From IMG/VR virus record IMGVR_UViG_3300021952_000045, positions 1-20,773 of that record: a stretch of DNA of 20,773 bases; one strand, 5' to 3'. Shown here in pieces: positions 2,389 to 19,349 of this stretch (positions are counted from its first letter, which is position 1; every line of letters starts with the position of its first letter). Position numbers and translations under genes: made by a program. The notes under the pieces were generated by a model that worked only from the letters and a program-made list of their open reading frames with translations, ran no database searches and was not told the origin of the DNA. This DNA is from a virus.

Positions 2389-4344
2389 TCAAACTACTGC
2401 ACCTCGAAACATTCTTTCTGCCAACCTCTGGAGCGTGTTTTCTTGACTTCTGGGCTGTGGCGAGCTCACTATGGTGGATCGTTGCGCCTGGCCTTGCGAA
2501 TTTACAATCACTGGCGTTGAAGTTATGTTTCGGACTGCGACAGATTCCTTTTTGCTGGTTGCGACTTCCCTACTTTGTTGAATCGCGTTATCTGTCAAGT
2601 CCGCAACATTCTTCTTACGAGCTATCAGTTCAACCTGTTTATTTGCTTCTAGTTGAGGGGTTGCAGATTCCTTCTCTTCGATGGAATTTATGGGTTGATA
2701 TGTGTGTTTATTTGCTTCTAGTTGAGGGGTTGCAGATTCTATAACGTTACCATGCTCATCAACAGCCTTCAACATCGCATTTTGCTTATCAAAGATTGTG
2801 GGCGTGTGCGCGACTTTTGTCGCAGTTTGTTCAGCTTCAACTTTCGCACGCTTTGCTTTAGCGGCGGCGATCGCTTGCTGGTATCTAGGATCTTTCTCTC
2901 TAGCAGCTTCTAGTTCATCTCCTGTAGTGATGTGCCCAAATAACCCCTCAACAGCATTACCTGCGACATTCCTAACGGTGTCAGAGCCATTGTATAACAT
3001 TGTCCCTACACCCGCGCCCAATGCGCCAGCGGCGGCTGAACCCAATGCCACAGTGCCAGCTCCTAATGCACTGACGCTAGTTCCTAGCGTCCCCAATAAC
3101 CCGGATGCACCAGCAGCAGCGATAGACGGTACCGCACCACCTGCGGTATCCCCTAATAGCGAAGTTGGGACTCGATCCTTTAGTTTTTCTACCAACCCTT
3201 TAGCTTTAGATTTTACTGCATCTTTCGCCGAAGAATACTTTTCAGTTGCCTTCGCAGCCTTTTCCTTAACTACATCAAGTTTTTCTGATAATGTAGATGT
3301 GCCACCTTTTTTGGTTTCTGTTAAGTGCTCATCGATTTGACCTAGTTCTTTAACAATCTCACGCTTCTCATCGGTTGGTTTAGCTTTTACCTCAGGAAGA
3401 GTGTTATCGCTCAGAACGGTGGAACGAGCTTTTTCAATTGCATTTCGTAATTCGTCAATACTAGAGGAAATAGAATCTACGTTTTCGGACTGTTTTACAC
3501 CGTGAGACTTAAACAAATCTTTAGAATGGTGTTGGAACTCGTCCGCGGTTATGTTACCTGCGTTTAAATTTCTCTCTAAAGTTGACAGAGTTGTTGCGCT
3601 AGAATCTATTTTTTCAATCTTAGCATTTCTGAGACGTTCTGTAGTTTCAGCAAGTTCAACGTCCTTGATTTTAGTCGTGTCTTGCTCTGACAACCCCTCT
3701 AATTTTGAAGTTCCTTCGAGGTAAGTTTTTCTTGATATTTTCCCAGCATTGAACGCCTTTTCTAAAGCATCGAACTGGAACTTATGCTCTTTGATACGTT
3801 CAGCTTTTGCTTCCTTTGCGGCGCGCTCTTTTTCAACTAACTCATCGTGAGCTCTATCCTCATCGGACTTGAGCATGTCTAATAACGTGTCCTTGATGCT
3901 ATGAAGCTGCTCAATAGTCTTCATGGCACCAGATTCATAAATTTTAGATAGTGCTATATCCTTTAGATTATTACCTAACTTTCTAAGGGCGGACGGCTCT
4001 GCCGTCGAAACATCCACGCCTTTAGAAGTTGGTGTCTTCTTAACAACTTGTTGTAGTGTGTCGTTGCTCGGTTGAACCGTAGAGGCAGCTTTTTCAACCG
4101 CTTCGCTTTGAGCTACTTCAGAAGAGACAGGCAGTGCAAGATTTGAAATGGTCTTGCCAATTTCAACAGGGGGTGAAGAGGTAGAAGTAGGGTTTGGAAT
4201 GGTAACGGGATCTGTGGTAACTACATCCGTTATCAACTCCTTTGTAGGCTGAGGTGTAGTTGAATTATCCGGCGTAACGTGACGTAGCACGGATTTAGAT
4301 GTCCGTGCTACGCGTTCAACTCTTCGTGTTTTTGCAATTTTCAT
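2389..4344 (-). CDS. 651-aa coiled-coil protein, tape-measure candidate
   Basis: I do not recognise the family by sequence. Residues 1-20 are basic, and about 25-110 are Ser/Thr/Pro-rich low complexity. Residues 160-390 are Lys/Glu/Ala-rich and predicted helical or coiled coil. Residues 401-450 form an uninterrupted Gly/Ala/Leu hydrophobic stretch, and a polar tail includes a duplicated decapeptide SATPQLEANK (537-546 and 560-569). A long coiled coil with an internal hydrophobic segment, placed straight after a frameshifted tail-chaperone-like gene, is the usual setting of a tail tape-measure protein. The length (651 aa) is near T4 gp29 (590 aa). It has a GGGAG ribosome-binding site about 7 nt before the ATG and a CATAAATT late-promoter-like box at 4364-4371. 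An internal virion or ejected protein is the main alternative. Confidence 0.5.
   Translation of the reverse strand: MKIAKTRRVERVARTSKSVLRHVTPDNSTTPQPTKELITDVVTTDPVTIPNPTSTSSPPVEIGKTISNLALPVSSEVAQSEAVEKAASTVQPSNDTLQQVVKKTPTSKGVDVSTAEPSALRKLGNNLKDIALSKIYESGAMKTIEQLHSIKDTLLDMLKSDEDRAHDELVEKERAAKEAKAERIKEHKFQFDALEKAFNAGKISRKTYLEGTSKLEGLSEQDTTKIKDVELAETTERLRNAKIEKIDSSATTLSTLERNLNAGNITADEFQHHSKDLFKSHGVKQSENVDSISSSIDELRNAIEKARSTVLSDNTLPEVKAKPTDEKREIVKELGQIDEHLTETKKGGTSTLSEKLDVVKEKAAKATEKYSSAKDAVKSKAKGLVEKLKDRVPTSLLGDTAGGAVPSIAAAGASGLLGTLGTSVSALGAGTVALGSAAAGALGAGVGTMLYNGSDTVRNVAGNAVEGLFGHITTGDELEAAREKDPRYQQAIAAAKAKRAKVEAEQTATKVAHTPTIFDKQNAMLKAVDEHGNVIESATPQLEANKHTYQPINSIEEKESATPQLEANKQVELIARKKNVADLTDNAIQQSREVATSKKESVAVRNITSTPVIVNSQGQAQRSTIVSSPQPRSQENTLQRLAERMFRGAVV
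2636..2739 (-). repeat. 35-nt direct repeat inside the 651-aa gene
   Basis: Two identical 35-nt copies (2636-2670 and 2705-2739) lie 69 nt apart, an exact 23 codons. They encode the duplicated decapeptide SATPQLEANK with its flanking residue. Identity at DNA level, including third positions, suggests a recent duplication. Confidence 0.85.
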
Positions 4345-4374: not shown

Positions 4375-4542
4375 TTACTTTTTAGCCTTTTCTGCGATTC
4401 TGTCTAATAACAATTCGACATAAACATCTCGCTCGAAAGGTATCATAGTTTCTAATTCTGTGAGGGACCACCCAAAAGCATCCCTTAACACCAGATTCAA
4501 CTTATAGATTTCGTGCAACGTGATCGTGTTGCACGCTATGGA
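4375..4542 (-). CDS. gp51-like C-terminal extension of gp26 reached by -1 frameshift
   Basis: On the minus strand the gp26-like frame reads GAT TTT TTT CCA TAG. Slipping back one base on the T7 run (4542-4548) continues through 55 codons to a TAA at 4375-4377. The extension contains GWSLTELETMIPFERDVYV followed by an amphipathic helix. It looks like a real protein module of the kind found in tail-assembly chaperones, with the Pro-Phe/Trp-Glu-Arg core I associate with T4-like hub proteins. The frame has no ATG before the Met in ETM and no ribosome-binding site, so a frameshift is the natural way to express it. The fusion would be about 294 residues. Sites and frames are seen directly; the homology and the slip are inference. 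Confidence 0.7.
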   Translation of the reverse strand, partial: SIACNTITLHEIYKLNLVLRDAFGWSLTELETMIPFERDVYVELLLDRIAEKAKK

Positions 4543-4548
4543 AAAAAA
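4512..4548 (-). promoter_or_regulatory. Programmed -1 frameshift cassette: T7 slippery site plus stem-loop
   Basis: On the minus strand, seven T residues (4548-4542) lie in phase as T TTT TTT. They are followed by a 6-nt spacer, CCATAG, which includes the 0-frame stop. An 8-bp perfect stem follows, CGTGCAAC (4535-4528) with GTTGCACG (4519-4512), around an 8-nt loop. Heptamer, spacer and downstream hairpin match the classic layout of -1 frameshift signals. Confidence 0.72.
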
Positions 4549-5258
4549 TCTGCCACGCTTTCCAAAGTTAGTTTTGAAACATTCTTACATTTCGGGCATG
4601 TCAACACAATTTCTGCCTTTAATGTGGGCATGTCGGACTTCAATACGGCTTCGATTTCCGTCTTCTTAGAAAGTGGGATGTTTAAGTACCATTCTTTAAA
4701 TTCTCCATAATCTACATCTTCCTTAGAATTCACCTCTGACGGCGTAAATATCATGTCAACCATGTTATAGAGCAATCTGATGTCTATATCCTCGTCTTGA
4801 GAATCAACATTATTCAGCACGTCGTCCGCGGTGTGATAGCGCAGACGCAATTTTACGTCCGACCCCAAATCGATATCTCGAATACCTGAATTATTCACAA
4901 CCTGAATATCGTTCAAGTCAAGTTGATAACTGATAGGGGCACTGCAAACCTTATCATTTACAACATTCAAACACTTATAATTCAGTTCGCTAATTTCTCC
5001 AACCGAATAACCACGAATCTTAAGGAACGCCCAAATCATATCGGCAAATGGTAGGTCTTTAGCTTGTGTTTTGCTGTCAAACGAACACGCGTCGACAATC
5101 TGACACATGTTCAACGCGGTTTTCGACTCGTCTGTACTCTCTTTAAGAAGTAGTAATACCTTTTCTTCTCTAGTAGTGTAAGGACGAACCTTTAACGGTG
5201 TCTTGCTAACGGGTAGATCGATAAGGTATGTGGGTAGGTCTAAGCTCGGTAATGCCAT
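4536..5258 (-). CDS. 26: Baseplate hub assembly protein, T4 gp26-like (0-frame product)
   Basis: The protein of 240 residues starts MALPSLDLPTYLIDLPVSK, followed by LKVRPYTTREEKVLLLLKES. This is the typical N-terminus of the T4 gp26 / T4-type baseplate protein family, which acts in assembling the central baseplate hub. A CPKC motif lies near the C-terminus (about residues 223-226). I prefer the ATG at 5258 over an in-frame GTG at 5288, because homologues begin MALP and the GTG lies in a GC-rich hairpin. No good ribosome-binding site lies next to the ATG; the nearest GGGGAG is inside that hairpin. The frame ends in TAG (4536-4538), 6 nt after seven consecutive T residues. A -1 slip there would add 55 residues (see the 4375-4542 entry). 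Confidence 0.82.
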   Translation of the reverse strand: MALPSLDLPTYLIDLPVSKTPLKVRPYTTREEKVLLLLKESTDESKTALNMCQIVDACSFDSKTQAKDLPFADMIWAFLKIRGYSVGEISELNYKCLNVVNDKVCSAPISYQLDLNDIQVVNNSGIRDIDLGSDVKLRLRYHTADDVLNNVDSQDEDIDIRLLYNMVDMIFTPSEVNSKEDVDYGEFKEWYLNIPLSKKTEIEAVLKSDMPTLKAEIVLTCPKCKNVSKLTLESVADFFP

Positions 5259-6479: not shown

Positions 6480-6871
6480 GTTTCGAGCTTTCCGATTAAA
6501 TTTAGCACATACGTTTTCCACGAAACTCGTTCTTGTGTTTGAACTGCTACAGGTTCTACAGCTTTAACAGCATTCGGAACAGATTTAGGAGATTTAGCCT
6601 TTCCTAGATAGTTTTTAAAATCGATAGGGGTGGGTGCTTCAACACTTTGGTCGATGACTTGATCCATCTTTGTTTCGATTTTTAAGTTTCCATAAGAATC
6701 TAAGTGTGCGGAATAATAGTGTAAGACGTACAACCTGGCAGTTCCTGGCTTCACGTGATTAAACTGCTCTGCAAGTGTAGAATCAACATAGTTCACGTGA
6801 GTTCCGGGAACCATAAATGGTGGTTTATCGTGAACAGGCAATTTTAAGAATTCTTGAATAGTAATTGTCAT
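6467..6871 (-). CDS. Hypothetical protein, 134 aa, between thyA and 33
   Basis: I do not recognise this protein. It starts MTITIQEFLKLPVHDKPPF, contains ARLYVLHYYSAH in the middle, then a Pro/Ala/Val linker, and ends with a short amphipathic helix. No zinc site, signal peptide or membrane segment is visible. Its ATG overlaps the thyA stop (ATGA), so translation is probably coupled. Its end overlaps the start of gene 33 by 13 nt. T4 has the gp59 helicase loader (217 aa) in the 32-33 neighbourhood. This protein is much shorter, and I see no resemblance to gp59, so I do not assign that role. Tight packing with genes 32 and 33 suggests a role in replication or transcription, which is inference. 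Confidence 0.75.
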   Translation of the reverse strand: MTITIQEFLKLPVHDKPPFMVPGTHVNYVDSTLAEQFNHVKPGTARLYVLHYYSAHLDSYGNLKIETKMDQVIDQSVEAPTPIDFKNYLGKAKSPKSVPNAVKAVEPVAVQTQERVSWKTYVLNLIGKLETWLE

Positions 6872-7719
6872 ACCGCTACTTTACCTCTCAATGAAGGGTG
6901 TGGGGTGTAATCGTGCAATGTAAAATCTTTACCAATCTCAAACTCCCCTTGCAATAGCTGTTCTGTGGTGAATGTTGGAGCTATTGATAATGTCGGTGGA
7001 CGTTTTAACTCTCTACGTAATACCTCTAAGCACTGGTCTTTATGATTGTCGTAAATGTGTGCATCTCCTAAAGTGTGAATGAATTCACAAGGAATGTATC
7101 CTAAACAATGTGCCATTAACTTAGTCAGCAGTGAATAGCAGGCGATGTTGTAAGGGACACCTAAAAATACATCGGCGGAGCGTTGATAAAGCTGGCATGA
7201 TAAGTACCTAACGCCTATTTCATCTTCGGAAACATCCCACTGTACAAACGCATGACAAGGTGGAAGTTTCATTTCGCTAAGTTCAGCAACATTCCAAGCA
7301 GAAATAATATGACGTCGTGAAAATGGATTGTTCTTTAACGATTTCATCACTTCAGCAAATTGATCGATAGGTTGTCCTAAGTGAAATGTAGATCCGTTTG
7401 TAGAAGTGTATGTGTTACAATTTCTCCATTGATAACCATACACCTTTCCTAAGTCACCATTTTCATCAGCCCATTCATTCCAAATGTTTACTCCCTTATC
7501 TGTTAAGAACTTAGTGTTAGTAAGACCTTTTAAATACCATTGTAGTTCAATTGCTATTGTTTTCAAAGATGTAAATTTTGAAGAAACTAATGGGTATGAA
7601 TGTTGTAAATCATACCTAGACTGATATCCAAAAATTTTAGTTGTACCAACTCCAGTTCTATCATGTGTATGTTTACCACGATTTAATACTTCTGAAATCA
7701 GTTGTTGATATTGCTTCAT
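6868..7719 (-). CDS. thyA: Thymidylate synthase ThyA
   Basis: The enzyme converts dUMP to dTMP with methylene-tetrahydrofolate, supplying dTTP for phage replication. It has 283 residues, near the usual length. Visible motifs are the phosphate-binding DRTGVGT (20-26), the SRRHIISAWNVAEL segment (134-147), the catalytic Cys155 in LPPCHAFVQW, then LSCQLYQRSADVFLGVPYNIA and HTLGDAHIYDNH for substrate binding. The equivalent T4 gene (td) is interrupted by a group I intron; here the frame is uninterrupted. There is no strong ribosome-binding site before the ATG. The start codon lies at the edge of a tandem 50-nt repeat that forms its leader. It is the first gene of the minus-strand cluster and overlaps the next gene by 4 nt. 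Confidence 0.97.
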   Translation of the reverse strand: MKQYQQLISEVLNRGKHTHDRTGVGTTKIFGYQSRYDLQHSYPLVSSKFTSLKTIAIELQWYLKGLTNTKFLTDKGVNIWNEWADENGDLGKVYGYQWRNCNTYTSTNGSTFHLGQPIDQFAEVMKSLKNNPFSRRHIISAWNVAELSEMKLPPCHAFVQWDVSEDEIGVRYLSCQLYQRSADVFLGVPYNIACYSLLTKLMAHCLGYIPCEFIHTLGDAHIYDNHKDQCLEVLRRELKRPPTLSIAPTFTTEQLLQGEFEIGKDFTLHDYTPHPSLRGKVAV

Positions 7720-16679: not shown

Positions 16680-19349
16680 ATGTCAAATTTACAAAGTCCG
16701 GGGGTATCTTATGTTGAAAACTCGGTTACTAACGCTCTAAAACCAAAGACTTCCTCTATCGGGGGTTATGTCGGGAAATTTGCGTGGGGACCAGCGTTCA
16801 GCATTCGTCAAATTTCTTCCGAGCTAGAGCTACAAACAATCTTTCACAATCCGAATTCGTTTAACGCGGATGACTGGTTCAGTGCTAGAAATTTCTTAGA
16901 CTACTCTAGCAACCTAAAAGTTGTTCGGGCTGTAGATTCTACAGCTAGAAACGCGTATTCATTCACAGGTGGCACAGTTTTAAATTGTCGAGTTGATAAC
17001 GCTTCGGATTGGGAATCTAAAAAACTTACACCTGATATCGTTTCTGCACAAGTTCTTGCAAAATATCCAGGAACTTTAGGTAATAGTATCGAATTTTCTA
17101 TGGCGGATTCCGCTACATTTGAACAGTGGAAATATCGTCAGCTATTTTCCACATCTACAGTTCGATATAGTACAACTGTTTCTACAGTTGCGACATTTAC
17201 GGGTTCTGTAGTTGTCGGTACAAATACTATCAACAACATATCCTTGGTAGGTGCTGGTAAATTAGTCGTTGGACAAGTTCTAACGGGTGCTGGGACATTA
17301 TTTCCTACGGGAACTACAATCACATCGATTGTTAATTCCGCGTCTATTCAAGTCAGTGCTGCTGCAACTTCTACCGGAACAACTCTATCCACAGCGACTT
17401 TAACCACTACAGTTTCTACAGTTCCTGGTGCTCCAGGTACGACTAGATGGTGTGCGCTTGCGGGTGGTGCCAATGACGAAGTTCATGCTGTGGTAGTTGA
17501 CATCGATGGTAAAATTTCAGGAACTGCTGGCACGGTCTTAGAAATTTACAAGGGGTTATCTAAAGCGATTGATTCGTTAGACAATAACAATATGTCTAAT
17601 TATTACATGAGCGTGATTAACGATAAGTCTAATTGGGTTTGGCTTTCTGCTATCGCACCAACACAGGCGGGTGCGGACGCTATGGCGTCCCATACCATGA
17701 CAGGTTGTTCCGGTTCTGCAACTTCACAGATCGTTAATTACACAGGTTCTAGCATCCCTTTGTCGATCTTAGACGCCGTTTATTACAAAGGTGTGTATAT
17801 TGGCGTAATCATTGGTAAGAATGCAACGTCTGTCACGTTAAATGTTCCACTCACAGCAGACATCCCTGCTAATAGCACATTGACGTTTGGTGCTGCTCCT
17901 GCGTTGCCTACAGTAACCGGGACTGTCAATGCTACATTACAGCGATTTACATTGGCAAATGGATCGAGTGCGGTTGTTGTAGGTGATACTGCCATTACAT
18001 TTGCAGCAGGTGCTCCCGCAATGGCAGCAGGCACAGCACTATACCTAAGTACGGGTGCAAGAGTGGGGGTGCTAACAGCCGCAGTGACGGCTGGACAATC
18101 AACTCCTGCCTCAATCACTTCAGCGGACGTTGCGGTTCCTGCTAACGCGTCGTTGATCAGTACATTGTGTACATATACAACTTCAACTATCGGTGGTGGG
18201 TATATTTTTGGATCTGCCATTTCGGGAGTTGGAATTGCAGCGGGAACCACTGTCATTAGCCAACCTTCTGTTGCTGGTGGCGTAACTACAGTCACATTGA
18301 GCTCCCCATGTACAGTGAGCAACGTAGGTCAATTGAGAGTTACCTACGGAAATGGTTATTCGCCTGTTGGAAGTACGTCTGGCAATAAATTTGGATTCTT
18401 CCGTTCCCAGTTGGTTTACAACTTAGAAAGTGGTGTTGACGGATATAACAGCATCACAACCGCGGATTTTATGACAGGATATGACTTGTTCAAAGATGCT
18501 GGGTCTGTTCAAGTAGATCACTTAATTATGGGGTCTGCGAACGACGGAATCAACGATGGTGAATTGACTAGATACTGTATTGAAAGCATTGCTGAAGTTC
18601 GGAAGGATTGTATTGTTTATCACTCCCCTAAATTGGCGGATGTGTTGAACGTAACTCCTGAAGCTGCGATGTCTAACATCATTGCATATCGTCAGAAATT
18701 TAATAACAGCACGTATGCCGTGATGGATACGGGTTGGAAATACCAATACGATCGTTTCGCAGACACTTATCGCTGGGTTCCATTAAATGCGGACATTGCT
18801 GGACTATCAGCACAAGTTGATAGAACAAATGATGTGTGGTGGTCATTCGCGGGCTATTCACGCGGGTTAATTAAAAATGTTGTGAAATTAGCATTTAACC
18901 CAGCTAGAAAAGAAACTCAGCGTGATGTGCTTTACCCGTTAGGTATTAACCCTGTAGTTGCGGAAGAAGGTGCTGGAACTGTATTGTTAGGCGATACGAC
19001 AATGACAACAGATTCTACATTGTTCGGACAAATCGGAATCCGCAAATTGTTTATCGCGCTAGAACGCACGATCGGGGATGCGAGCAAACGTAACTTGTTT
19101 GAATTTAACGACGAGCCAACACAGACTAGATTCTTTAACTCTACGTCTAAATATCTGCGTGATATTCAAGGACGACGCGGAGTTGCGGATTTCAAAGTCA
19201 TTTGCGATTCGACTGTTAATACTCCTATCATTGTAGAGTCTAAACGGTTTGTTGGTAAAATTTACGTGAAGCCGAATATGTCTATCAATTGGGCCGAGTT
19301 GAATTTTACAGCAGTTGGTGCGTCTGTAGCGTTCTCTGAAATTGGTTAA
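16680..19349 (+). CDS. 18: Tail sheath protein, T4 gp18-like, with inserted domains
   Basis: The sheath polymer contracts to drive the tube through the host envelope. The protein has 889 residues against 659 in T4. The N-terminus MSNLQSPGVSYVENSVTN and GGYVGKFAWGPA (28-39) is typical. The core continues at residues 255-322 and from about 558, where VDGYNSITTADFMTGYDLFK, then YAVMDTGWKYQYD, VPLNADIAGLSAQVDRT and the C-terminal IGIRKLFIALERTI are conserved sheath parts. Two regions look inserted. Residues about 165-250 form one domain. Residues about 323-557 form perhaps three tandem beta domains rich in Thr, Ser, Gly, Val and Ala. The last of these (ISGVGIAAGTTVISQ) resembles the domain in the fibre protein. 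AGGAGAAG lies before the ATG. Confidence 0.95.
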   Translation: MSNLQSPGVSYVENSVTNALKPKTSSIGGYVGKFAWGPAFSIRQISSELELQTIFHNPNSFNADDWFSARNFLDYSSNLKVVRAVDSTARNAYSFTGGTVLNCRVDNASDWESKKLTPDIVSAQVLAKYPGTLGNSIEFSMADSATFEQWKYRQLFSTSTVRYSTTVSTVATFTGSVVVGTNTINNISLVGAGKLVVGQVLTGAGTLFPTGTTITSIVNSASIQVSAAATSTGTTLSTATLTTTVSTVPGAPGTTRWCALAGGANDEVHAVVVDIDGKISGTAGTVLEIYKGLSKAIDSLDNNNMSNYYMSVINDKSNWVWLSAIAPTQAGADAMASHTMTGCSGSATSQIVNYTGSSIPLSILDAVYYKGVYIGVIIGKNATSVTLNVPLTADIPANSTLTFGAAPALPTVTGTVNATLQRFTLANGSSAVVVGDTAITFAAGAPAMAAGTALYLSTGARVGVLTAAVTAGQSTPASITSADVAVPANASLISTLCTYTTSTIGGGYIFGSAISGVGIAAGTTVISQPSVAGGVTTVTLSSPCTVSNVGQLRVTYGNGYSPVGSTSGNKFGFFRSQLVYNLESGVDGYNSITTADFMTGYDLFKDAGSVQVDHLIMGSANDGINDGELTRYCIESIAEVRKDCIVYHSPKLADVLNVTPEAAMSNIIAYRQKFNNSTYAVMDTGWKYQYDRFADTYRWVPLNADIAGLSAQVDRTNDVWWSFAGYSRGLIKNVVKLAFNPARKETQRDVLYPLGINPVVAEEGAGTVLLGDTTMTTDSTLFGQIGIRKLFIALERTIGDASKRNLFEFNDEPTQTRFFNSTSKYLRDIQGRRGVADFKVICDSTVNTPIIVESKRFVGKIYVKPNMSINWAELNFTAVGASVAFSEIG

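Follow-up and report, generated by a model that had tools for sequence, protein, structure and literature searches.

The window, meaning the whole stretch of DNA that was analysed, is a metagenomic IMG/VR virus record of 20,773 bases from an uncultivated phage, and its source is a T4-like myophage. The minus strand of the window carries a baseplate hub gene, a further coding stretch in the -1 frame that begins at the end of the hub gene, and a long gene behind both (Table 1). The earliest possible start of the hub ORF is GTG 5288. Nevertheless, the likely start is the ATG at 5258 (MALP...), favoured because the cyanophage homologues also begin with MALP. The 3′ end of the hub gene reads GCA GAT TTT TTT CCA TAG on the minus strand, and the encoded protein ends with ...ADFFP-stop.

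Table 1. Features of the hub gene locus in the window
Feature	Coordinates	Strand	Description
0-frame gene	4536..5258	(-)	predicted T4 gp26-family hub assembly protein, short form, TAC-N-like, 240 aa
Slippery heptamer T TTT TTT	4542..4548	(-)	in phase with the 0 frame; from sequence
Spacer CCATAG, 6 nt	4536..4541	(-)	contains the 0-frame stop TAG 4538-4536
RNA hairpin	4512..4535	(-)	candidate stimulatory element; 8-bp perfect stem, 8-nt loop
-1 frame: FF + 55-aa extension + TAA	4375..4548	(-)	predicted gp51 C-terminal domain, TAC-C-like; TAA at 4377-4375
Next gene	2389..4344	(-)	651 aa, rich in Ala, Lys, Glu, and Thr; tape measure candidate on positional grounds only

A preliminary description of this DNA had interpreted the end of the hub gene as a programmed -1 frameshift site. 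The elements that it named are all present, including the T7 run in phase as T TTT TTT, the 6-nt spacer with the 0-frame TAG, the perfect 8-bp hairpin after the spacer, and the 55 open codons of the -1 frame. The hairpin begins 6 nt 3′ of the heptamer, and its stem arms are CGTGCAAC/GTTGCACG. Its fold was calculated at -12.6 kcal/mol (z = -3.66), and none of 200 shuffled sequences was equally stable. The -1 frame is open from the two Phe codons to the TAA, and its translation beyond the putative slip site is FFSIACNTITLHEIYKLNLVLRDAFGWSLTELETMIPFERDVYVELLLDRIAEKAKK-stop. The extension had also been described as having no usable start of its own. This holds for ATG, which does not occur in the window's -1 frame before codon 34 counted from the slip site, but TTG and GTG codons are found earlier, and no Shine-Dalgarno sequence was seen by eye ahead of them.

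The body of the hub protein is assigned by its profile matches to the gp26 family, represented by PF12322 (E=6.1e-38) and by phrog_150, "baseplate hub" (E=5.7e-40). The AF2 model of the body has a pLDDT of 92.6, and a BFVD fold search with it matched baseplate hub subunits, the best at 1e-18. The window protein shares at most 33% identity with the known relatives found in the analysis, and a search of viral contigs with this protein alone detected no relatives. Similarly, the search of sequence profiles of body and extension against solved structures found none.

The 57 residues formed by the two Phe and the extension match phrog_634, "baseplate hub assembly catalyst" (2.1e-13), and the extension also matches the far C-terminus of phrog_150, weakly. 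The Pfam search of the window extension returned no matching model. The search with tblastn revealed matches of the extension in 574 phage records, and among the matches listed nearly all start at the gp26 end, including both Phe residues. Each of the 55 sequences in the alignment of the extension matches phrog_634, and the extension can be aligned with the C-terminal end of T4 gp51. Based on the phrog_634 match and the position of the tblastn matches at the gp26 end, the 55-aa extension is assigned as the gp51 C-terminal domain. Its AF2 model consists of three helices (pLDDT 81.6). The combination of a gp26-like body with a gp51-like extension, as proposed in the preliminary description, is in agreement with these matches.

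In phage T4, gp26 and gp51 are hub assembly chaperones, and gp51 is required and absent from the particle (PMC3004832). T4 gp26 (208 aa) matches phrog_150 positions 14-235, and T4 gp51 (249 aa) matches phrog_150 positions 13-280 in addition to phrog_634. In the comparison with the fused forms, the alignment of T4 gp51 passes the junction without a break and includes the extension, whereas T4 gp26 stops at the junction. The alignments identify the two T4 proteins as paralogues, of which gp51 comprises body and extension, and gp26 the body alone. Therefore, the 55 residues of the window match only the C-terminal part of gp51, and the earlier label "gp51-like" applies to that part, since the whole gp51 also includes a gp26-like body. 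The T4 gp26 gene ends with GAG TTC TTT GAG TTA CTA TAA and lacks the heptamer, TTC TTT not being slippery; gp26-like genes adjoining other in-frame gp51 genes lack it as well. As gp26 of T4 has no heptamer and gp51 is in frame, T4 possesses two genes in place of one putatively frameshifted gene. The T4 gp26 and gp51 genes (locus L007, 1716-3142) are divergent in orientation.

Homologous loci were gathered regardless of the slip site, mostly via conserved stretches at the N-terminus or in the interior of the hub protein, and with the addition of named phages a total of 171 distinct junctions with the domain was obtained. An alignment of homologues had been suggested as a check of the heptamer and of the -1 frame, and both proved to be conserved. 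The gp51 domain lies in the -1 frame in 171 out of 171 distinct junctions and never in the 0 or +1 frame, and an in-phase T TTT TTN is found just before the stop in 169 of the 171. These heptamers comprise 145 TTTTTTC, 18 TTTTTTT, 4 TTTTTTA, and 2 TTTTTTG, and in 152 of the 169 homologues exactly one sense codon separates the heptamer from the stop. Elsewhere in the homologous genes, an in-phase TTTTTT occurs only 25 times in 39,687 other codons, and therefore the frequency of the heptamer near the stop is beyond chance. The groups with this pattern are Kyanoviridae, the KVP40-type, the CC2/Aeh1-type, S13, Pootjesviridae, pf16, and Moby.

Codon usage at the junction indicates that the constraint acts on the nucleotides, beyond the Phe-Phe residues alone. 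TTT is used for none of the other Phe codons in RL38J1 (0/14) and phiM9 (0/11), and for one out of fourteen in pf16, yet all three have TTT at the slip site. Under each gene's own synonymous usage, the probability of NNT TTT across 69 diverse loci is 10^-33, a figure that treats the 69 loci as independent, which relatives are not. The programmed -1 frameshift of the preliminary description is strongly supported by this comparative evidence, namely the heptamer in 169 of 171 loci, the nucleotide-level constraint, and the contrast with T4. Very probably, the product of the hub gene is a tail (baseplate hub) assembly chaperone that would be made in two forms via a -1 slip.

Alternatively, the extension could be a separate small gp51-like gene, translated by ribosomes that reinitiate once they have terminated at the hub stop (coupled reinitiation). 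In many cyanophages and vibriophages, 'gp51' is a gene of its own in the database annotation, and the TAATG or TGATG overlaps present in several relatives (TAATG in KVP40 and others) could permit such reinitiation. However, start codons are few: besides the late first ATG of the window, 37 loci have no ATG, GTG or TTG within the first 13 codons, and an SD-like motif was found at only 10 out of 211 early start-like codons. In 137 of the 169 loci FF is immediately followed by a conserved Arg, so that a conserved FFR lies upstream of any start, and the heptamer is conserved at the nucleotide level even in GC-rich phages. Furthermore, T4 gp51 is a fused protein, and in CC2, Aeh1, P-RSM1, and S13 the annotation lists no separate gene at this place. 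An independent gp51 gene was rejected on the scarcity of starts and SD-like motifs and on the conserved FFR and heptamer, and we consider it very unlikely. Slightly less probable still is transcriptional slippage, in which RNA polymerase would slip on the T run and mRNAs of altered length would encode the fusion. The T7 run of the window, where one extra T fuses the frames, would suit such slippage, but most homologues (145/169) have T6 followed by C, and T6 is a short run for RNA polymerase slippage. The fixed codon phase and the occurrence of TTTTTTG also fit the expectation for tandem tRNA slippage, and transcriptional slippage was rejected for these reasons. The least credible explanation is a sequencing or assembly error, a T missing from the T7 run of a metagenomic record whose frames an eighth T would join into one truly in-frame fused gene, and it was rejected at the family level because the same frame break, mostly as T6C, is present in independently sequenced isolates and in 169 of the 171 loci.

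RNA folding directly downstream of the slip site is enhanced, with a mean z of -1.18 (se 0.22) in 69 diverse homologues, compared with mean z values of -0.62 to +0.08 at control offsets in the same genes. The search for one hairpin common to all groups was negative, neither position nor sequence being conserved; the mean pair probability of the best shared helix is only 0.34, and this helix applies to a single subset. Therefore, the stem of the window is regarded as a candidate stimulatory element for slippage and not as a conserved element.

Under the programmed -1 frameshift, most ribosomes would stop at the TAG and release the 240-aa, gp26-like short form, and a minority would shift by one nucleotide into the -1 frame at T TTT TTT, possibly aided by the hairpin 6 nt downstream. 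The slipped product would be the long form, equivalent to T4 gp51, whose 55-aa C-terminal domain is predicted to be mainly helical. The analogy with lambda gpG/gpGT suggests a division of tasks, in which the short form may serve to coat or hold the tape measure protein and the extension to recruit a tube or baseplate partner. Both forms would assist while the tail is assembled on the tape measure protein, would then dissociate, and would be absent from the virion.

In lambda, the short chaperone gpG and the -1 frameshifted longer form gpG-T serve the tape measure protein, with most ribosomes yielding the former and a minority the latter (PMC5009743). The window resembles this system in the short form and the -1 frameshifted long form, but the slippery site differs. 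When the hub model was compared by Foldseek with 350,542 PDB chains, the HK97 tail assembly chaperone (PDB 2ob9) ranked first, with a non-significant E = 0.62 over about 62 aligned columns at 6% identity. No significant sequence or fold link to the lambda or HK97 chaperones was detected, and there was no sequence match in PDB. In view of the E value of the HK97 match, descent shared between the hub chaperone and the G/GT family is a hint only. Of the lambda-like strategy put forward in the preliminary description, the comparative evidence supports the strategy itself and does not extend to homology with lambda G/GT. The TAC locus of Vandenendeviridae and Andersonviridae, located upstream of the tape measure gene, has a GTTTTT slippery motif and a conserved -1 frameshift near the TAC-N end (PMC12846349). 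The window is similar in the predicted -1 slip on a T run near the TAC-N end, but belongs to a different phage group.

The window shares with the TAC-N/TAC-NC proteins (gp26/gp51) of T4-like phages the same protein family and the same short and long forms. Vladimirov et al. reportedly found frameshifting conserved in several T4-like groups, with T4 using genes 26 and 51. Tail assembly chaperone genes have been identified in T4-like phages (Vladimirov, Gautam & Davidson 2022, Virology 566:9-15), and some of these phages, as that work is summarised for PRFect (PMC10885494), encode the short form by its own gene and the long form by a fused one. PolyT slippery signals in T4-like TAC-N genes are mentioned in PMC12846349, citing Vladimirov et al. 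Because of the 2022 publication the central idea is not new, and the tie of T4 hub chaperones to tail assembly chaperones was already in print as far as these two accounts describe it (PMC10885494, PMC12846349). The locus of the window is a further member of the known T4-like tail assembly chaperones, from an undescribed uncultivated phage. For the strategy, which had been proposed for T4-like phages before, the analysis adds evidence at the nucleotide level. Possibly unreported are the evidence from codon usage, the enhanced folding downstream of the slip site, the case of Aeh1, and the exception of the Ackermannviridae.

The gp51 of cyanophages was described as reaching only some 20% of its normal length, and Aeh1 as lacking gp51 (Sullivan et al. 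2010, PMC3037559). The short length would result from the frameshift, and the reported absence in Aeh1 from a -1 extension that was left unannotated; the Aeh1 junction reads GAT TTT TTC GAC TGA and is accompanied by such an extension. This indicates that in hundreds of cyanophage, vibriophage, and rhizobiophage records one frameshifted gene is annotated as two, or its C-terminal domain is missed. In Aeromonas phage Aeh1 (locus L213), the unannotated gp51 domain is located at 1501-1668, in the -1 frame after gp26. Unannotated gp51 domains in the -1 frame are also present in CC2, P-RSM1, S13, and S-CAM1.

Ackermannviridae of the SFP10-type (L013, L198-L212) possess a conserved -1 extension, G[YI]S..E...MPWHL. 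Their hub gene ends with GAR ATT TTC ATT TAA, and neither this end nor the junction GARATTTTCATTTAATTTTTG contains a tandem slippery heptamer. The invariant sequence at the Ackermannviridae junction is GARATTTTCATTTAATTTTTGAAATTG. The -1 extension is also conserved in Vibrio phage 1.255, whose hub gene ends with CTT TTT CGC TAA TG, likewise without a tandem slippery heptamer. Tentatively, the frameshift could be ancestral in T4-like phages, with a duplicated gene taking over from the slip in the T4 lineage and a non-canonical signal in Ackermannviridae, although we regard this as somewhat doubtful. If true, the frameshift, the T4 duplication, and the Ackermannviridae signal would form a natural series setting the same short:long chaperone ratio.

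The 651-aa ORF starts 30 nt downstream of the extension, and it is plausible that it encodes the tape measure protein. No relative of this ORF was detected in 50,697 phage records, and the usual TM-like segment was not found in it. The syntenic gene of HTVC008M matches tape-measure families (PHROGs). The commonest organism names among the matches of T4 gp29 do not include Synechococcus. Elsewhere in the window, an 889-aa ORF on the plus strand (16680-19349) looks like a tail sheath (gp18); it is well longer than T4 gp18 and has a long low-complexity insertion rich in Ser/Thr/Val/Gly. A ThyA-like thymidylate synthase ORF, recognised by eye, is located at 6868-7719 on the minus strand, between replication and structural genes.
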